This document shows positions 51,705-63,169 of a stretch of DNA of 64,000 nt, piece after piece. A model generated the notes under the pieces. It was not told the origin of the DNA, did no database searches, and was given only the letters and a program-made list of their open reading frames with translations. Numbering within the stretch: the stretch's first letter is position 1; every line of letters starts with the position of its first letter. A program made the translations under genes and the position numbers. The stretch comes from Aeromicrobium senzhongii (GTDB taxonomy: Bacteria; Actinomycetota; Actinomycetes; Propionibacteriales; Nocardioidaceae), in contig NZ_CP060587.1 of assembly GCF_014334735.1 (NCBI RefSeq), positions 1,736,001 to 1,800,000 on the forward strand, written 5' to 3'.

Positions 51705-52289
51705 TCAGCCGGCCCGCCCGCGTCGTCGGCCCGCCACGGCGACGGCCGCACCCACCAGGGCCGCGAATCCCACGACCGCCACCGCGATCTGACGGCCGTC
51801 CGCCCCGGCCGGGACCTCCTGCGGGACGCTCACCGTCATGGCCGGGTCGACCGTCTCGGCGGAGGCGGTGAACCCCGGCGTGGACCGGGTGTCGCTCGTC
51901 CCGTCGTCGCATCGCTGCTCGGCCATGAGCGTGACCCGCTCCCCCGCCGGCGCGCCGATCCGCGCCGTGAGGAGGAACTCGGCCACCTGTCCCGCGGGCA
52001 GGGCGCCGCCGGCGAAGTCCACGCGCCGACCATCCAGGACACCGGTCCAGCCGTCGGGCGCGGTCGCACTGACCACCGCGGACCCCTCGGGGACCTCCAG
52101 CGTCAGCCCGGTGGTGTCGGCATCGCCGCACCCCGGCGCGACGGCGACGACGAGGGCGACGGTCCCGTCCCCCTGCGGCACCACCGTGTCGACGGTCACG
52201 TCCGCGGCTGCCGACGACGCGCCGGCCACCAGCACGAAGGGCAGGGCGACCAGGGCGCCCGCGAGTCGACGCCCGCTGCGGGTCCTCAT
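51705..52289 (-). CDS. DUF1775 (YcnI-like) membrane-anchored protein lacking the N-terminal His
   Basis: The 194-residue protein has a signal peptide (ALVALPFVLVAGASSAAA), one DUF1775 domain (APGCGDADTTGLTLEVPEGS, TAPDGWTGVLDGRRVDFAGG), and a C-terminal helix with Arg-rich tail (VAVAGRRRGRAG). In YcnI the mature N-terminal His binds copper; here the mature end begins near ADVTVDT, without His, and the domain is shortened. A copper role is therefore less certain than for its paralogue. The ATG overlaps the CopC-CopD stop (ATGA), last gene of the unit. Confidence 0.78.
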   Translation of the reverse strand: MRTRSGRRLAGALVALPFVLVAGASSAAADVTVDTVVPQGDGTVALVVAVAPGCGDADTTGLTLEVPEGSAVVSATAPDGWTGVLDGRRVDFAGGALPAGQVAEFLLTARIGAPAGERVTLMAEQRCDDGTSDTRSTPGFTASAETVDPAMTVSVPQEVPAGADGRQIAVAVVGFAALVGAAVAVAGRRRGRAG

Positions 52290-53938
52290 GGAATCTGCAC
52301 CTCTCCGGAGACGACGGGCTCCTCGAATCGATCGATTCGCACCGCGACGGACACGCGCCACGCACCGGCGAGCGGGAGGTCGGCGGTGGTCTGCCAGTGT
52401 CCCGCCCGCGTCCTGGTCAGGGTCCGGTTCAGCGCACCCACCCCCGCCTCCTCGAGCCCCAGCTGCAGGCGAGGGGCGTCCGGGACGTCGACCGCCGCGC
52501 CCTCACGGTCGGTCAGGGAGACCTGGATCGCATTGGGGCCGCGCCGCGCCGGGGAGACCACGACGGTCACCCGGTGGGCGTCGTCCAGGTCGAGCTCGAG
52601 GCGCTGCACGGTCGAGACGCCGATGACCACGGTGTCGGCCCGAGGCGGAGGGGTCTGACCCACGAGCACTCCCGTGGCGACCAGCACGCCGGCGACGACG
52701 ATCAGCTCGAAGGTCACGGTGCGTCGCAGCAGCGCGGTCGCGGCCCCTGCCTCGCGCCCGGTCAGTCGACGCACCAGGACGAAGCGGTTCCACGCGGCCA
52801 CGGCGACGACGGGCACGAGCAGCAGGGCCTTCACCAGCACGGCTCGGCCGTAGCCGGTCTGCCAGAGCGCGGGCAGCGAGTCCGCGATCCGCCAGTACAG
52901 GACGATTCCGGCGGCCACCAGGGCCACCAGCACGAGTCCCGCGACCGCCGAGAACCGCGCGATCGCGGTGGCGCGGTCCGCCACCCTCAGCGCCGAGCCG
53001 GCAGCCAGGACGATGGCCAGGCCGACGAGCCCGCCCCACCAGAGGGCGGCGGCACTCACATGGACCAGGTCGGCGGTCAGCACGAGCCAGGCCGGGCCGT
53101 AGCTGCGGGTGTGGCCCACCGGCAGCAGGGACGCGACGGCCAGCGCCACGCCGACCGCCGCGACGACGGGACGACGTCGCCGTCCGGCCACGGCGAGGGC
53201 GGCGCCGAGAACCACGACGAGCACCGCGACGCCCGCCGCCGAGGTGAGCCCGTCACGCCATGCGTCCACACCCCACGCCGACGCGAGGGTCCGACCGGAC
53301 TCCCACGTGGCCGTCAGGGGTGCGAGCAGGAGCGTCGAGACGACGGCGAGCCCGGCGAAGCCGTACGTCGCGCCGCGGGTGCGGCGCGCGACCAGCGGCT
53401 GCCGGCGCACGGCCGAGGGGACGATGAACAGGGAGAAGACGACGAGCCCGGCGAGGCCCAGGACACCGGCGTACCGCAGCGCGTCGACCGTGGTCCGCAC
53501 GACGGACAACTCGCGCTCGGCCTGGGAGTCCGGGACCCCGATCGCGCCGGGCGTGGCCTCACCGACCGCGAACGTGAACCCGCCCGTGACGGGGTGGGAG
53601 TCCGCCGACACCACACGCCAGGTCACGACGTGGCTCCCCCGCGGCAACGGCTGCTCGGGACGGATCGTCAGCACCCGCCCACTGACCGAGAACGTCGTCG
53701 GTGACGGCTCGCCCGTGGCGTCCAGCACCGCGTTGCCCGTGCCGCCGAGCGTCACGGGCTCCGTGAACGACACGGTCATCTGGTCCGGCGGCGTGGTCAG
53801 CACCTGACCGTCGGCGGGGGTGCTCCCGATCGGCGAGGCGTGGCCGAACGCCGCGGCGGGCCACATCACGACGAGCAGGAGCAGCCCGGAGAGCACGGCG
53901 GCGAGCCGTGCCCTCCGGGCAGGAGCGGGCAGGGTCAC
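52286..53938 (-). CDS. CopC-CopD fusion (copper resistance / import protein)
   Basis: The 550-residue protein joins a CopC domain (mature N-terminus HASPIGSTPADGQV, and SADSHPVTGGFTFAV supplying the Asp and His of the Cu site) to a CopD membrane domain of about nine helices (residues about 150-430). A C-terminal extracellular beta domain of about 110 residues follows. CopC passes copper to CopD, which imports it across the cytoplasmic membrane. It is co-translated between the two DUF1775 genes (GTGA and ATGA overlaps). The start is a GTG. Confidence 0.9.
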   Translation of the reverse strand: MTLPAPARRARLAAVLSGLLLLVVMWPAAAFGHASPIGSTPADGQVLTTPPDQMTVSFTEPVTLGGTGNAVLDATGEPSPTTFSVSGRVLTIRPEQPLPRGSHVVTWRVVSADSHPVTGGFTFAVGEATPGAIGVPDSQAERELSVVRTTVDALRYAGVLGLAGLVVFSLFIVPSAVRRQPLVARRTRGATYGFAGLAVVSTLLLAPLTATWESGRTLASAWGVDAWRDGLTSAAGVAVLVVVLGAALAVAGRRRRPVVAAVGVALAVASLLPVGHTRSYGPAWLVLTADLVHVSAAALWWGGLVGLAIVLAAGSALRVADRATAIARFSAVAGLVLVALVAAGIVLYWRIADSLPALWQTGYGRAVLVKALLLVPVVAVAAWNRFVLVRRLTGREAGAATALLRRTVTFELIVVAGVLVATGVLVGQTPPPRADTVVIGVSTVQRLELDLDDAHRVTVVVSPARRGPNAIQVSLTDREGAAVDVPDAPRLQLGLEEAGVGALNRTLTRTRAGHWQTTADLPLAGAWRVSVAVRIDRFEEPVVSGEVQIP

Positions 53939-54627
53939 CCGCGGCTCCGCGTCCGAGCCAGGGCGGCGCCGCCGGCGACGAGTCCGAGCGCACCGAGCAC
54001 GACACCACTCCAGCCCAGCGCGTCCGAGCCGGTTCCCGCCTCAGCGGGCTCGTCCTCGGCCTTCGCCGCACCGTGACCGTGGCCGTCGCCCTCGGCCTCG
54101 GTCGTCACGACGAAGGGAGCCGGCGACTCGGGCTCGTCCTCGCCCTCCTCGTAGGTCTGGGTCCACGCGGTCTCGCCCTCCTCGCAGGTCTGGATGACCG
54201 GGAAGACGAGCTTCTCGCCCTCCTTCTCGGGCAACGGCAGCTGCAACGAGATCGTGTCGCGCATCCCGTCGGCCAACGGGGTCTTCGCCGTGTAGACGAC
54301 CTCGGCGACCCGCTCGGACTGCTCGGCACCGTGGCCGTCCGAGGAGGGCGACTCGAGCTTGGCCATCTTCTTCTCGACGGTCCAGTTCGGGTTCACCGTC
54401 GGGGTGACCGAGAGGACCTCCTCGGGCACCTGGACGGCGAGCTTGGTCGTCGGCGAGGTCCCGCACCCGTGACCGACGGAGAAGGTCAGCACGGCGTACG
54501 ACCCGGCTGCGGTCGACGACGGGGTGACCGACACGTGGGCCGAGGCGGCACCCGCCGCGACGGCGACGAGGGCGGAGGAGCCGAGGGCGAGCGCCGCCGT
54601 GCGGGCAGCGTGCTGGGCAAAAGACAT
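53935..54627 (-). CDS. ycnI: YcnI-family copper-binding protein (DUF1775)
   Basis: The 230-residue protein has a signal peptide ending ASA and a mature start HVSVTPSS, giving the exposed His that forms the mono-histidine brace for Cu(II) in YcnI. DUF1775 blocks follow (SVGHGCGTSPTTKLAVQVPE, NPNWTVEKK), then an acidic His-containing linker (EAEGDGHGHGAAKAEDE) and a C-terminal helix. It likely collects copper at the surface and hands it to the downstream CopC-CopD fusion. The ATG has a GGAGAA site. Its stop overlaps the next GTG. Confidence 0.88.
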   Translation of the reverse strand: MSFAQHAARTAALALGSSALVAVAAGAASAHVSVTPSSTAAGSYAVLTFSVGHGCGTSPTTKLAVQVPEEVLSVTPTVNPNWTVEKKMAKLESPSSDGHGAEQSERVAEVVYTAKTPLADGMRDTISLQLPLPEKEGEKLVFPVIQTCEEGETAWTQTYEEGEDEPESPAPFVVTTEAEGDGHGHGAAKAEDEPAEAGTGSDALGWSGVVLGALGLVAGGAALARTRSRG

Positions 54628-54671
54628 GGTTCTTCTCCTGGTTCGGGACCGCCCGGACGGGCGGGACTGGG

Positions 54672-55217
54672 TCACCGGCAGGTGCCGGCGACCGGGGCGA
54701 GGTCGACCCGGGAGAAGGGCGGGCCGCGTCGCACCAGGACGTGGTCGAGCAGGTCGACGTGCCGGACGGGCCCGGCCGCACGGGGCGGCACCGGGGCCGC
54801 CACCGGCCGGCGGGACCGGTGCACGGGACGCAGGACGAACGAGACCCGCGCCCACCACGACCACCAGAGCCGCTCGGCCACCGCGATCCCGGCGGCCACC
54901 ACCACGAGACCTGCGGCGTGGGCGGCGAGCATCGCCGGCGTCGACGGCACGATCGCGTGGCCGTGCACGTACCCGGACACCACGTGGACCCCGAGCTGCG
55001 GCAGCGCCAGCAGGACGAGCGCCCCGGTGAAGCCGATCCGGCGGCCGGCGGCCCACCACGCGAGCCCGGCACCGGCCGCGACGACCGGGAGGAGGGCCAC
55101 GACCGACGGGGCCTCACCGCTGCCCGCCACGTGGGCGGCGACGGCCATGAGAGTCGCCCACAGGCTCACCGCACCGGCGCGCACGAGGCGCGCGATCGGG
55201 GCTCCGGGGGCTGACAC
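54672..55217 (-). CDS. Small polytopic membrane protein, first gene of the copper operon
   Basis: The 181-residue protein has four or five hydrophobic helices, with a loop GVHVVSGYVHGHAIVPST containing four histidines that might touch metal, and a basic C-terminal tail (VLRPVHRSRRPVAAPVPP). No family is recognised, but similar proteins often lead YcnI/CopD operons. The GTG at 55217 is confirmed by TACGCT ending seven bases upstream (plus strand 55225-55230), so the operon is leaderless. YcnI follows after 44 bases. Confidence 0.72.
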   Translation of the reverse strand: MSAPGAPIARLVRAGAVSLWATLMAVAAHVAGSGEAPSVVALLPVVAAGAGLAWWAAGRRIGFTGALVLLALPQLGVHVVSGYVHGHAIVPSTPAMLAAHAAGLVVVAAGIAVAERLWWSWWARVSFVLRPVHRSRRPVAAPVPPRAAGPVRHVDLLDHVLVRRGPPFSRVDLAPVAGTCR

Positions 55218-57138: not shown

Positions 57139-57894
57139 GTGAATGCGTCACAGCGCGTGCCCTGGAGGACACGCAGAGTCGCCGTCGCTGCCCTCGCCCT
57201 CGGACTGACCGCTGCCGCCACGACCTACGTCATGGCCCAGCAGGACGTCAGCGGCACCGACTCCGGCACCAGCACGAAGTTCACCGTCGTCGGCGATGGC
57301 GAACTGCCCACCAAGAAGCCCAAGCTCGGAGAGAGCCGCTCGGCGCTCTCGGCCGAGGAGACGGGCTATGCCATCCACGTGGCCTCCACCGACGGCAGCG
57401 TCCCCTCGGACGCCACCGACGTCCGCGGCAAGCCCGGGCCGGAGTTCCTCTACGCGGACCTGCCCGACGTCGGTGAGGAGCTCAGCGGCCGCAAGGCCGT
57501 CGTCGCCCTCTACGACTACACGCACGACGTGGCCTACGACCAGATCGTCGACCTCGCCGCCGGCAAGGTCATCGACTCCACCAAGTCCACCAAGGCCCAG
57601 CCGCCGACCTCGTCCACCGAGGCCGACCTGGCGATGAAGCTCGCGGTCGAGTCCGACGCCGACCTGGCCTTCAAGGCCGAGTTCGAGGAGAACATGGGCG
57701 TCCCGCTCATCGATCCCGACCAGGTCGACTACGTCGCCGGCGCGTGGGTCTACGACAAGACCACGAGCAAGGGCAAGGAGTGCGGCGCCGACCGATGCGC
57801 CCAGCTCATGGTCTCGACCGCATCCGGGGTGTACCTCAACACCTTCGACTTCGTCGTGAACCTGTCCACCCAGAAGATCGTCCGCACCCAGTGA
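57139..57894 (+). CDS. Secreted N2/N3-domain half of a split copper amine oxidase
   Basis: The 251-residue protein has a signal peptide (RRVAVAALALGLTAAATTYVMA, cited by residues 13-33) and then two domains that follow the copper amine oxidase N2/N3 pattern. One is VALYDYTHDVAYDQIVDL with AAGKVIDSTKSTKAQPP; the other is a helix-plus-sheet domain ending FDFVVNLSTQKIVRTQ. In ordinary oxidases these domains precede the catalytic domain in the same chain; here the protein stops there. A Cys pair (CGADRC) may form a disulphide. The GTG at 57139 follows AAGGAG. The catalytic half begins 17 bases downstream in another frame with its own ribosome binding site and signal peptide. The domain call rests on remembered family patterns. 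Confidence 0.75.
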   Translation: MNASQRVPWRTRRVAVAALALGLTAAATTYVMAQQDVSGTDSGTSTKFTVVGDGELPTKKPKLGESRSALSAEETGYAIHVASTDGSVPSDATDVRGKPGPEFLYADLPDVGEELSGRKAVVALYDYTHDVAYDQIVDLAAGKVIDSTKSTKAQPPTSSTEADLAMKLAVESDADLAFKAEFEENMGVPLIDPDQVDYVAGAWVYDKTTSKGKECGADRCAQLMVSTASGVYLNTFDFVVNLSTQKIVRTQ

Positions 57895-57911
57895 GCAGGG
57901 AGAGAAGTCCG

Positions 57912-60014
57912 ATGCGCAAGAAGACACTGACGCGGATCGTCGCCGCCGGCGCGACCGCACTGATGACGGCAGGGCTGATCTCGGCCCAGCCCTCGGCGGC
58001 GAGCGCCGCCGAGGACACGCCGCTGGCGTGTGCCGACAGCCTCGTCACCAAGAAGCTCGAGAACGGCTCCAGCTGGCGGATGTGTGCGCGCATCCACCCG
58101 ATCAAGGGCCTCATCCTCGAGCAGATCGAGTTCAAGCCCGCCACCGGCGAGTACGAGTACGCCGGGTACAAGCGGGTCCTGGACCAGCTCAACATCGCCC
58201 AGCTGAACGTGCCGTACGACACCGGTCACGTCCAGTACAACGACATCACCTCCTACGGTTTCGGCAAGCAGTACCTGCAGTCGCAGGGCCCCGAGGTGTG
58301 CACGGGCGAGGCGCTCGACGTGGACCAGTCGTTCACGTACAGCGGCCGTCTGGTCGAGCGGACCATCCCGGGCATCTGCGTGCAGGAGGACCCGACGGGC
58401 CTCATGACTCACGCGCAGGAGACCCAGATCGGCGGCGGCACGCTGTACGCCGACCAGGGCACGGCTCTCGCGGTCTCGTCGATCTCCAAGATCAGCTGGT
58501 ACGAGTACCAGCAGCGGGTCGTGTTCGACGACCACGGCCAGATCGAGGTCGGGCTCGGCGCCACGGGCGACATCGCCCCGGGCTGGGCCTCCGACAGCGC
58601 GAACCAGTTCTTCGGCAACAACCCGAAGACGGGGTGGCCGCTGTCGGGCAAGTCGACCGTGACGACCACGGCCGGGGGCGAGACCACCACCAAGGAGATC
58701 CAGTCCTACGCGGGCTCGCACTGGCACAACGCCATGTACAAGGTCGACTTCGGCATCGACAAGGGTGAGAAGCAGACCGTCGAGCAGTGGGACTTCAGCA
58801 GTCCCGGTGCCGGCGTGCGCGCGCCCATCGTCGAGGGCACCGGAACGGTCAAGAGCTCGGCGTTCTCGTCGGTCGAGAACGAGGACCACGACCAGTTGAG
58901 CTGGTGGCGCGTCCTGAACCCGAACAGCAAGAACAAGGACGGTCACGCCCGTTCCTACGAGATCGTGAACAACAACACGTCGAACCTGTTGATGCCGGAC
59001 TGGTCGCCGTCGGTGACGTTCACGAACTACCGCTCGTGCGAGGAGTACGGCTCGGACAACCTCAACGCGGGCTGCCCGAACCAGAGCATCTTGGACTACG
59101 TCAAGAACGACACGCACGAGCTGACCGATCCGGTCGCGTGGGTCAACGTCGGGTTCCACCACACGGACAAGGACGAGGACCAGTCGCCGATGCCGATCCA
59201 CTGGCAGAAGTTCCAGCTGGTGCCGCGTGACTTCTTCGCCCAGAAGCCGACCGTGAAGGATGCCCGCAAGTGCATCAACGGCCCGTTCTCCTCGGTGAAC
59301 GCGGTGACCAAGCCGTGCACGCCGGAGAACACGGTCGCGCCGAAGATCAGCGACAAGGCCGACGGCACCGCCGCGGTCGTGCCGGCGGTCGGCAAGACCC
59401 TGACGGCCAGCACCGGCACGTGGCGCAGCGCCGCTCAGCGGTTGACGTACGCCTTCACCTGGTTCCGCAACGGTGAGGCCGTGTCGACCGGTCAGGACTA
59501 CACCCTGACCGAGGCCGACATGAACGCGTCGATCACGGTCAAGGTCAACGCCTCGGCTGCCGGGTTCCCCACGAACGTGGCGGAGTCCGAGCCGGTCGTG
59601 TGGGGCACTCCGCCGACGACGGTTCCCACCGAGGAGCCGACGACGGCGCCGACCACGGCCCCGACCACCGCCCCGACGACGGCGCCCACCACGGCTCCGA
59701 CGACCCGCCCGACGCCCGCACCGGTCGTCAAGAAGGCGTCGAAGCTCACGGTCAAGCTGTCGAAGACGACGGTGAAGCCGGGCAAGAAGAACAAGGTCGT
59801 CGTCGCGGTGACCGTCGGTGGCAAGCCCGTCTCGGGCAAGGTCAAGGTGACGGTCAACGGCAAGGTCCGCACGCTGACGCTCAAGGGCGGCAAGGCGAAC
59901 CTGACGTGGACGGCCCCGAAGAAGGTGAAGACCTACACGGTGAAGGTGTCCTACGCGGGCAGCAGCACGGTGAAGGCCGCCAGCACGACGGTGAAGTACA
60001 AGGTCAAGAAGTGA
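57912..60014 (+). CDS. Secreted catalytic half of a split copper amine oxidase with Ig and Thr-Pro tail
   Basis: The 700-residue protein has a signal peptide (residues 1-33) and an amine-oxidase catalytic domain (about 40-450). The candidate catalytic base is Asp111 (NDITSYGFG), the TPQ precursor Tyr197 (SWYEY), and the copper ligands His270, His272 (SHWHNAMYKVDFGID) and His417 (HTDKDEDQSPMP). Spacing between these agrees with family members. The residue before Tyr197 is Trp, where NYD/EY enzymes have Asn. An Ig-like domain (about 465-560), a Thr/Pro/Ala repeat linker (568-605) and an Ig-like end domain follow. It oxidises a primary amine to aldehyde, ammonia and H2O2, if active. The site GGGAGA precedes the ATG. 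Confidence 0.82.
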   Translation: MRKKTLTRIVAAGATALMTAGLISAQPSAASAAEDTPLACADSLVTKKLENGSSWRMCARIHPIKGLILEQIEFKPATGEYEYAGYKRVLDQLNIAQLNVPYDTGHVQYNDITSYGFGKQYLQSQGPEVCTGEALDVDQSFTYSGRLVERTIPGICVQEDPTGLMTHAQETQIGGGTLYADQGTALAVSSISKISWYEYQQRVVFDDHGQIEVGLGATGDIAPGWASDSANQFFGNNPKTGWPLSGKSTVTTTAGGETTTKEIQSYAGSHWHNAMYKVDFGIDKGEKQTVEQWDFSSPGAGVRAPIVEGTGTVKSSAFSSVENEDHDQLSWWRVLNPNSKNKDGHARSYEIVNNNTSNLLMPDWSPSVTFTNYRSCEEYGSDNLNAGCPNQSILDYVKNDTHELTDPVAWVNVGFHHTDKDEDQSPMPIHWQKFQLVPRDFFAQKPTVKDARKCINGPFSSVNAVTKPCTPENTVAPKISDKADGTAAVVPAVGKTLTASTGTWRSAAQRLTYAFTWFRNGEAVSTGQDYTLTEADMNASITVKVNASAAGFPTNVAESEPVVWGTPPTTVPTEEPTTAPTTAPTTAPTTAPTTAPTTRPTPAPVVKKASKLTVKLSKTTVKPGKKNKVVVAVTVGGKPVSGKVKVTVNGKVRTLTLKGGKANLTWTAPKKVKTYTVKVSYAGSSTVKAASTTVKYKVKK
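59613..59727 (+). repeat. Thr-Pro-Ala tandem repeat linker in the oxidase tail
   Basis: A 12-base period (four codons, P-T-T-A) is repeated about six times, with silent third-base differences between copies. It encodes a flexible, probably glycosylatable linker between the Ig domain and the C-terminal domain. Confidence 0.85.
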
Positions 60015-60118: not shown

Positions 60119-60808
60119 ATGCGCATGAACGTCGTCCTCCGCCCGGTCGCACTCGCCCTGGCCGCGCTGGCCCTGGCCGGCTGTGGCACCCGGCCCCAGC
60201 AGGTGTCCCTCGGTGGCACGAAGGCCGCCGACACCGCGGAGCAGCGCGGGACGGTCGAGCGCCCGTGGGGCACCGTGAAGACCTTCCCCCGCCTGCAGAA
60301 GGCCGAGCCGCCGAGCGCCGCCGACGTGACCTTCACGCGGGACATGATCATGCACCACCGCCAGGCCGTCGAGCTGTCCGAGAACGTGCGCACCCACCGC
60401 GGCCTCGACGCCCGGGTCGGCTCCGCCGCGCGGTTCATCATCCAGGACCAGAAGAACGAGATCACGACCATGCGGGCCTGGCTCCAGGCCTGGCAGGACT
60501 CCGCCGGCACCGAGAGCCACGACCACGGCGCGGACGCGATGCCCGGCATGCTGGCGCAGGCGCGCGTCGACGAGCTCGCAACCCTGGATCGCCCGGCCGC
60601 CGAGGTGGCCTTCCTCGTCGCGATGATCGAGCACCACGAGGGTGCCATCACGATGTCGCAGGACTACCTGCCCGAGCAGACGAACGCCTTCGTCCGCAGC
60701 ACCGCGACGCACATCATCGGCGAGCAGACGACCGAGATCGCCTACATGAGGAACCTCCTCGACGAGCGGTGTGGCCCGAAGGGGCCCTCGACGTGCCCCC
60801 GCGACTGA
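60119..60808 (+). CDS. DUF305 lipoprotein
   Basis: The 229-residue protein has a lipoprotein signal with lipobox LALAGC (Cys22), then a four-helix DUF305 domain with paired-His motifs MIMHHRQAVELSE and MIEHHEGAITMSQ. DUF305 proteins are extracytoplasmic and frequently encoded with copper proteins; a metal-binding role through these histidines is inferred. A His/Asp segment (SHDHGADAMPGM) lies between the two halves. The ATG at 60119 has GGAG five bases upstream. The gene overlaps the signal peptidase by 16 bases. Confidence 0.88.
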   Translation: MRMNVVLRPVALALAALALAGCGTRPQQVSLGGTKAADTAEQRGTVERPWGTVKTFPRLQKAEPPSAADVTFTRDMIMHHRQAVELSENVRTHRGLDARVGSAARFIIQDQKNEITTMRAWLQAWQDSAGTESHDHGADAMPGMLAQARVDELATLDRPAAEVAFLVAMIEHHEGAITMSQDYLPEQTNAFVRSTATHIIGEQTTEIAYMRNLLDERCGPKGPSTCPRD

Positions 60809-61371
60809 GCCCGGCCCGTCCCCGGCACGCGGGCTGGTGGGCCGCGGCCGCGGTCGCTGCGCTCGTCGCCGGGTCGCTCGCGACCGGGGTGGTCGGCCAC
60901 GCGACGGTCACCTCGCCGTCCATGGCGCCGACCCACGCGACCGGCAGCTCGGTGATCACCACGCGGATCGGCGTCGACCGGGTCGAACCCGGCGACGTGG
61001 TGGTCTTCGAGGTACCGCAGCCCTGGCGCGCGGCGGAGCGCGAGCGCGCCGGTCGGTCCGAGGACTCCTCCGGTGGTGAGGCGATGGTCAAGCGCGTGAT
61101 CGGCCTGCCCGGCGACCGGATCACCTGTTGCGCTCCGGGCGGCCTGCTGATGCGCAACGGGAGCCTGCTCGACGAGCCGTACCTGGCGGAGCCGCCCGGC
61201 GACCTGCTGAACACGACCTACGACGTCACGGTCCCTCCGGGTCACGCCTGGGTGCTGGGCGACAACCGGCGCCGCTCGTTCGACTCTCGCGCCATGCAGG
61301 CACGCACGGGCGCCTCGGGCTTCCTGCCGCTCTCCTCGATCCGGGCCCGGGTCCTGTTCGGCTGGCCCTGA
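60793..61371 (+). CDS. lepB: Type I signal peptidase
   Basis: The 192-residue enzyme has one N-terminal membrane helix (WWAAAAVAALVAGSLATGV), the catalytic Ser in VTSPSMAPTHATGS, the catalytic Lys in MVKRVIGLPGDRI, and the GDNRRRSFDSR box of the family. It cleaves Sec or Tat signal peptides on the outside of the membrane. The start is a GTG inside the end of the DUF305 gene. It is short and lies beside four secreted proteins, which suggests a pathway-specific peptidase in addition to the housekeeping one. Confidence 0.9.
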   Translation: MPPRLSPARPRHAGWWAAAAVAALVAGSLATGVVGHATVTSPSMAPTHATGSSVITTRIGVDRVEPGDVVVFEVPQPWRAAERERAGRSEDSSGGEAMVKRVIGLPGDRITCCAPGGLLMRNGSLLDEPYLAEPPGDLLNTTYDVTVPPGHAWVLGDNRRRSFDSRAMQARTGASGFLPLSSIRARVLFGWP

Positions 61372-61379
61372 GGAACCAC

Positions 61380-61688
61380 TCAGTCCTCGTGACCGGGGTC
61401 CGTCGGCTCCATCGCCCCGGCGAGATCGCGCACCCGCTGGCCCAGCGCGAAGCCCGACAGGTCGGGGCTGCGGACGAGATACTCCTGCTGGACGAGGTGC
61501 TTGAGGATCCGGTAGGCCGTCGCGCGCGGCATCTGCAGGTTCTCGGCGATCTCACGCGCCGACACCCCCGCTCCCGACCGGGCCACCTCCTCGAGGATCG
61601 AGAAGGCGTTGTCGACCGCACCGGGCTCGCGACCGCGGAAGGGCGCGGGCGGCACCTTCGGCTGCGGATCGGTCATGCCGGTGCTCAT
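61380..61688 (-). CDS. Single-domain IclR-type HTH regulator
   Basis: The 102-residue protein has only the winged-helix domain of IclR regulators: [20 protein letters not shown] and [20 protein letters not shown]. The roughly 170-residue effector domain is absent; the sequence ends shortly after the wing, so it either responds to another partner or is a truncated derivative. The ATG overlaps the permease stop (ATGA). It is convergent with the signal peptidase gene. Confidence 0.8.
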
Positions 61689-63169
61689 GCGCCCAACAGA
61701 TCCGTACGGATGGTCTCGTCGTGGATGCCCATGCGGCGCAGCGCGCGACGCCGGTGGGATCGGAGCCACCCGAACCACACCATCGAGAAGACCAGGGTGA
61801 CCCCCGCGAGCACCAGGCCCGAGGGATCACCGTCGCGGACGTCCCGGACGGTGTCGACGGAGGCCAGCGCGAGAGTCAGGACGACGGCCGTCGCGGCCAG
61901 GACCACCGGGCCGACCGTCAGCTCGTCGAGGCGATGCAGGAAGGCCGGCAGGGACAGCGCGACGAGGGCGTAGGCGATGAACAGGACGAACACGGCGGAC
62001 TGCAACAACGCCGTCGAGAGGGGCCCCACCTCCCGACCGACGAGCAACGTGACGGTGGCCGGGGCGATCGCGAACGGGGCGATCACCAGCAGCGCCCCGA
62101 CCGGAGACGCCCACCGCGGGTGCGTGTAGCCCAGCACCGCCGGCAGGATGCCCTCGCGGGCGAACGAGAAGACGACCCGCGCCAGCGCATTCCAGGCACA
62201 CAGGGTCAACGCCAGGAACGAGACCGCCAGCAACGAGCTGAGGACCGCGTCCGCGTGGTGGGCGTCGACCGTGTCGGGGAACCACCGCTGCGCCGGCCCG
62301 CGGGGATGGCCCGGAGCCGGGACCAGGGTGCTGGCGGCCAGGAAGCTGACCACGTACAGCGCCGCGGCGACGAGCACCGATCCCGTCATCGCCCGCGGCA
62401 CGCTCCAGAACGGGCGCTCTGCCTCGCTCGCGAGCGCCGCCGAGGCCTCGAACCCGACCGTGATCCCCAGGACGATCGTGGCGCCCAGGACGATGCGCCA
62501 CGGGTCGGCACCCTCGAGGGAGAGGACCGCCGGCGAGGGCAGGCCCTCACGCCCGATCGTGAGGACGACGAGGCACGACAACCCCACCACGAGCGCCGAC
62601 TCGACCACGAGGGCCAGCCGGGTCGCGACGCGAACCCCGCGGATGGAGACGACGAGGCAGAACACGAGCACGGCGACGCCGATCCACCATTGCGGCCACG
62701 GCCCGGCAGCGGTCTGGCCCGGGGACGTCGGCGAGACGGCCTCGGTCGATCTGCGGATCGTCTGGGAGACCCCGAACGCGACGAGGATCCCGTAGCCCAG
62801 CAGCATCGACGTACCGACGAGGAGCCCCGGGAACGGTCCCAGCGACCGGGTGACCCACGTGTACATCGAGCCCGCCGCGGCGATCCGGGTGGCGAACTGG
62901 GAGAAGACGCCCGCGAGCAGCAGGGCCAGGCCGAAGCCCAGCACCGCGCTGAGCCAGGCGCCGGGGCCGACCACCCGCATGAGGACGAACGGGACGCTCA
63001 GAGCACTCGCCGCCGGAGCGATGACAGCCACCGACAGACCGAGCAGGTCACCGGGCAGCACCGAGCGCCGGTCCAGTCCCGCGAGGTCCGATTCCGCCCG
63101 CACCTGGGGCACCGCCGGCGGATGGGCGATCGCCTCCTCGAGTGCGGGCACACCGGATGGTCGGTTCAT
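61685..63169 (-). CDS. APC-superfamily amino acid/amine permease
   Basis: The 494-residue protein has about twelve helices. The helix 1 block [20 protein letters not shown] is followed by [22 protein letters not shown], and [15 protein letters not shown] in helix 6, typical of APC transporters. It is convergent with the oxidase module, and its partner is a one-domain regulator. An amine or amino acid substrate linked to the oxidase is possible but not shown. TAGGGT lies nine bases before the ATG. Confidence 0.85.

Follow-up and report, generated by a model that had tools for sequence, protein, structure and literature searches.

A conserved two-gene arrangement in Aeromicrobium senzhongii and other Actinomycetota that divides a copper amine oxidase into D2-D3 and catalytic chains with predicted secretion

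The window, a stretch of 64,000 nucleotides from Aeromicrobium senzhongii, carries two adjacent genes, P1 and P2, that lie in different reading frames of the + strand with 17 bases from stop to start (Table 1). Both starts are preceded by purine-rich ribosome binding sites (AAGGAG for gene 1 and GGAGAGAAG for gene 2), and both products have N-termini that are hydrophobic on sequence inspection. The exact coordinates and these N-termini agree with the preliminary description, which had reported separate ribosome binding sites and signal peptides, different frames and the 17-base gap. The genome consists of a single 3.13-Mb contig in which the P1-P2 pair is present once. P1 after its signal end (217 aa) and the catalytic part of P2 (about 415 aa) sum to about 632 aa, in keeping with the earlier remark that the mature first chain plus the catalytic domain reach the length of a one-chain oxidase; chains of the Arthrobacter globiformis phenylethylamine oxidase (AGAO) have about 620-640 residues. 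The Ig-like and PT-rich modules of the P2 tail recur in several other proteins of the same genome, and this tail may have a role in wall attachment.

Table 1. Features of the P1-P2 locus and its downstream neighbours (positions in the window).
Feature	Position	Strand	Details	Basis
Gene 1 (P1), D2-D3 (N2/N3) chain with predicted secretion	57139..57894	+	251 aa, GTG start	ORF, hhalign, AlphaFold/Foldseek
P1 signal peptide or membrane anchor	57139..57240	+	about 34 aa, hydrophobic; possible cleavage after VMA	sequence, crude hydropathy
P1 D2-like (N2) domain	57322..57603	+	approximate boundary	hhalign, model secondary structure
P1 D3-like (N3) domain	57604..57891	+	conserved CGxxRC motif; approximate boundary	hhalign, model, alignment
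17-base intergenic gap	57895..57911	+	ribosome binding site GGAGAGAAG	sequence
Gene 2 (P2), catalytic chain with predicted secretion	57912..60014	+	700 aa, ATG start	ORF, PF01179
P2 signal peptide	57912..58010	+	ASA-A region, putative cleavage	sequence
P2 catalytic (D4) domain	58014..59291	+	match at aa 54-447	PF01179
P2 Asp111, catalytic base	58242..58244	+	VPYDTGHVQYND; invariant 54/54	alignment to copper amine oxidases
P2 Trp196-Tyr197	58497..58502	+	Tyr at quinone-cofactor precursor position; Trp in place of conserved Asn; both invariant 54/54	
P2 His270-Trp-His272, copper ligands (HxH)	58719..58727	+	invariant	family alignment
P2 His416-His417	59157..59162	+	second His aligned to third copper ligand	
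P2 tail of two Ig-like modules joined by a PT-rich linker	59292..60011	+	missing from many relatives	sequence
DUF305/CopM-like putative copper-binding lipoprotein	60119..60808	+	conserved downstream neighbour	
Signal peptidase I (PF10502)	60760..61371	+	uncertain start	profile match
IclR-type helix-turn-helix protein	61380..61778	-		
APC-type amino-acid permease	61685..63169	-		

P1 would be annotated as hypothetical because no Pfam family matches it; in a Pfam profile search the P1 of the window has zero matches of its own. It shows a weak match to the NCBIfam primary-amine-oxidase model (aa 116-175 to profile positions 65-123, E 0.002), which is matched by 30 of 32 members of the P1 family (best E 1.9e-5), and the Pfam family matched by the largest number of P1 members is AGAO-like_N2 (7/32, weak). 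Comparison by hhalign of the P1 profile with 35 one-chain copper amine oxidases (CAOs) gave a Prob of 96.4, an E of 1.1e-9 and a score of 76.5, with columns 27-222 of 227 in P1 aligned to CAO columns 23-217, the N2-N3 region; the controls scored at most 19.9 when column-shuffled, 13.9 when reversed and 21.9 or less against eight decoy families. An earlier profile-profile run against eight CAOs had given a weaker match (Prob 57, E 1.1e-4). The P1 HMM matches the N2 part of one-chain CAOs, which is also its sole genome-wide match in each of two pair-less genomes of the genus (E 2.4e-6 and 1.4e-5). The D2 motif HPLDPLT..E of one-chain actinobacterial CAOs is shared by P1 as RDPLT..E. A PDB sequence search with P1 alone matched nothing, and one with the P1 profile returned a protein L match at chance level only. 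The AlphaFold model of P1 has a pLDDT of 92.3, and in a Foldseek search of the PDB all 50 chains with E<0.001 are CAOs, at a TM of about 0.5; given this value, the inter-domain angle of the modelled P1 would be either different from that of solved CAOs or unconstrained in the lone chain. P1 is a homologue of the CAO N2-N3 (D2-D3) domains, as had been read from its N2/N3 pattern, and these domains of the Copper amine oxidase (PF01179) superfamily are present at the locus, though in a separate polypeptide.

The second gene, earlier described as the catalytic domain, matches PF01179 with an E of 4.3e-32 and 112 bits against a Pfam curated cut-off of 27, and P2 is by homology a CAO catalytic (D4) domain with conserved catalytic residues. 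The partner Tyr (VPYD), the Asp base, the cofactor Tyr, the HxH and the HH are invariant in 54/54 P2 members, which gives all of them the three His copper ligands of the superfamily (HxH and a later His) together with its catalytic-base Asp and topaquinone (TPQ)-site Tyr (VPYD..ND). A change in the cofactor motif, going beyond the preliminary description, was also found. The window has SKISWYEY, where one-chain CAOs from its phylum have NY(E/D); the Tyr is retained and the Asn is replaced by Trp in every split sequence read. In one family (L149-L155; G755, G637, G850, G702, G794, G890 and G836) the last acidic residue of the motif is Thr (WYTY). Its members are large-genome actinobacteria with a split pair, in which P2 is without the C-terminal extension and the copper and base residues are all kept.

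The pair belongs to a widespread actinobacterial family, with the split kept by dozens of actinobacteria from soil, a scope that the preliminary description of a single locus did not have. In an order-level survey, a close P2 was found in 8 of 198 genomes, with P1 directly upstream in 8/8. A scan of 84,980 species, whose probes were conserved short peptides including one around WYEY, so that motif-less relatives may escape it, yielded 53 loci, all in Actinomycetota, each of which has its own P1 ORF immediately upstream of P2 (53/53); the P1/P2 junctions are mostly overlaps of a few bases or gaps of up to about 35. A class-wide profile survey of 395 genomes, independent of the peptides, found P2 in 39 and an adjoining P1 in 38 of these. 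No fused P1-P2 occurs in the 39 P2-bearing genomes of the class survey or at the 53 scan loci. Nocardioides, Microbacterium, Agromyces, Actinoplanes and Jiangella carry the pair, and Streptomyces probably does too. In a tree of 40 split and 36 one-chain catalytic domains, the split ones form one side of a 100/100 branch; the tree is unrooted with a long joining branch and is compatible with either fission or fusion. Microbacterium yannicii has two divergent copies of the whole pair (L035/L039 and L036/L042), in which the P1 and P2 of each copy go together. The P1-P2 split is old and conserved.

Several other loci and records were noted in the surveys. Genome G727 (L156) has a lipoprotein-like P2 and no P1 found genome-wide, and offers a natural test of a lone catalytic chain. 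The catalytic chain of Phytohabitans suffuscus (L071) lies in two frames, probably through a frameshift or sequencing error in the record. An apparent internal TGA in family f92 was considered as a further split and rejected, being the end of the reading frame. Plasmid records hold distant relatives only, about 24% identical over the catalytic domain.

A conserved neighbourhood accompanies the pair, an observation added by the present analysis. Among the 53 loci, a DUF305 gene lies downstream of P2 in 45, a type I signal peptidase gene is found in 26, an IclR gene in 30 and an APC permease gene in 29; all four are present in the window. At Streptomyces-like and f92 loci there is no DUF305 gene within about 3-4 kb. 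One DUF305 protein, CopM from a cyanobacterium, binds copper both in the periplasm and extracellularly (PMC4335983). The signal peptidase I of the window is perhaps dedicated to the secreted P1 and P2 chains, and the presence of the regulator and permease is suggestive of the use of amines or amino acids. Just upstream of the pair, at 51705-54744 (-), are genes for two DUF1775 (YcnI-like) proteins and a CopC-CopD fusion; L025, the nearest named relative, is the only other locus where these copper genes adjoin the pair, and the association is therefore not general. Directly upstream of P1, 55357-57003 encodes a secreted Ig-like-repeat protein (Big_3_5, SdrD_B-like), with a full relative in L025 and weak matches in three other loci.

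A relative from Actinopolymorpha (L026), with P1 and P2 in one frame and a single TAA between them, allowed the paired structure prediction called for earlier. In this linked model the TAA was read as a residue and the P2 signal peptide served as linker; the alignment held paired rows from three loci, other P1 and P2 rows unpaired, and zero one-chain CAOs. The AlphaFold model has a pLDDT of 83.8, falling below 50 in the linker only, and a pTM of 0.86. Its Foldseek alignment with entire one-chain CAOs spans about 700 columns (E about 1e-31), with a TM of 0.70 on AGAO (621 residues) and an rmsd of 8.7 A. This TM corresponds to about 435 residue equivalents; P2, with 419 residues, could not supply them all, and part of P1 is therefore predicted to sit at the D2-D3 place; the rmsd indicates that part of the modelled arrangement differs from one-chain CAOs. 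The linked model supports a P1-P2 assembly, short of proof, the predictor having seen CAO structures. A mirror-tree comparison was dropped as contact evidence because other operon genes score at least as high: the P1-P2 distance correlation of 0.63-0.67 is no higher than that for DUF305 or the permease.

Our proposal is that the product of the locus is probably a secreted amine oxidase of the copper/quinone type, built from two chains. An operon would supply P1, the D2-D3 half, and P2, the D4 half, and each would leave the cell separately by its own signal sequence. Outside the cell P2 would take up copper, probably helped by the DUF305 neighbour, and its Tyr197 would be converted to a quinone. 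P2 would dimerise and bind P1, which would pack at the D2-D3 place of one-chain enzymes and help to shape the amine entrance. The assembled enzyme would convert an extracellular primary amine to an aldehyde, ammonia and H2O2. The docking of the chains is predicted by the model, and we infer their assembly and dimerisation, the delivery of copper, the cofactor, the substrate and the amine oxidase activity.

P1 could instead be a dedicated chaperone or anchor that serves P2 folding, copper loading or membrane proximity and then leaves, with P2 acting as a lone D4-only oxidase. Such a role would suit a P1 whose hydrophobic N-terminus may be an anchor instead of a cleaved signal and which evolves faster than P2, as well as the putative lipoprotein P2 of G727, which is without P1. 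We consider it unlikely, since P1 retains both D2 and D3, in order, the pair is kept in 53/53 loci and 38/39 genomes, and the linked model gives P1, at least in part, the placement seen in one-chain enzymes.

The cofactor site raises another alternative, namely that the pair assembles but is no TPQ amine oxidase, its Trp-Tyr motif serving a different cofactor or reaction, such as a cross-link between Trp and Tyr, chemistry by copper alone or a substrate other than an amine. The Asn preceding the cofactor Tyr is reportedly strictly conserved and important for cofactor formation, and in the yeast enzyme HPAO-1 the N404A substitution lowers TPQ formation to 5-10% (PMC3382800). The Trp at this position in every split sequence and the change of Glu to Thr in the WYTY family would fit such a departure. 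Against it, the residues needed for TPQ formation (the Tyr, the Asp base, the VPYD partner Tyr and the three His) are all kept, and holo structures of AGAO N381A exist (7wir, among the Foldseek structure matches); the Asn is therefore not absolutely needed, and its change to Trp is unusual but in principle not fatal. We regard a pair devoid of TPQ amine oxidase function as distinctly improbable. A last reading, in which the gene pair arose through faulty assembly, a frameshift or the decay of a one-chain gene, and to which only the rule of one-chain CAO enzymes lends anything, is refuted by the genome survey and has next to no likelihood. Both frames are intact in four genomes of the genus, including that of the window, and in eight loci down to 44% identity, which excludes sequencing error. 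The separate starts and signal sequences persist undamaged in more than 80 genomes from many genera, the P2 chains form one well-supported clade, and the two frames are adjacent and never fused. The preliminary description had already set aside a simple frameshift.

The two-chain amine oxidase reading joins a hypothetical gene (P1) and a gene known by its catalytic domain alone (P2) into one predicted enzyme. Divided naturally where D3 meets D4, and maintained across a whole class, the pair provides a ready system for the role of D2-D3 in catalysis, which can be asked because the two parts can be expressed separately and mixed. With Trp where an Asn is reportedly strictly conserved, it also opens the rules of topaquinone formation to direct testing. 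Tentatively, and with more doubt than confidence, we suggest that naturally heteromeric (P1-P2)2 amine oxidases make up a clade widespread among actinobacteria. Their substrate-channel domains would be secreted apart, as an exchangeable subunit, and the Trp-Tyr site would hold a quinone formed in a different local environment or a modified cofactor.

A crystallography review describes all structurally characterised CAOs as homodimers of a single D2-D3-D4 chain (PMC3382800). AGAO shares with P2 a D4 domain with the HxH and His ligands, the Asp base and the cofactor Tyr, and its D2-D3 is homologous to P1; it differs in having D2-D3-D4 in one chain and Asn-Tyr-Asp where P2 has Trp-Tyr-Glu. The actinobacterial one-chain CAOs read begin directly at the D2 motif without a signal peptide and look cytosolic from their sequences, whereas P1 and P2 each have a predicted signal sequence. 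The E. coli tyramine oxidase TynA (ECAO) is a secreted CAO whose residues 96-720 form a single alignment with the combined P1+P2 profile, but it is a single chain with an extra D1 domain and the canonical Asn-Tyr motif. Methylamine dehydrogenase and quinohemoprotein amine dehydrogenase also oxidise amines with a quinone cofactor and more than one chain; their folds and cofactors (TTQ and CTQ) are unrelated to those of CAOs, and they are not known to use O2 as electron acceptor. In this analysis no sequence or fold link of P1 or P2 to these dehydrogenases was seen. No published description of a two-chain, split or heteromeric CAO was found in the open-access literature searched, PMC12058724 included. 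The preliminary description had suggested that a two-subunit secreted amine oxidase would be a new architecture; its sequence-level claims hold, its interpretation is largely borne out, and the assembly is predicted. The canonical TPQ copper amine oxidase has D2-D3-D4 in one polypeptide, and here and in all paired relatives these domains are divided between two genes; this two-gene architecture and the changed cofactor motif differ from the one-chain form of every characterised relative found.
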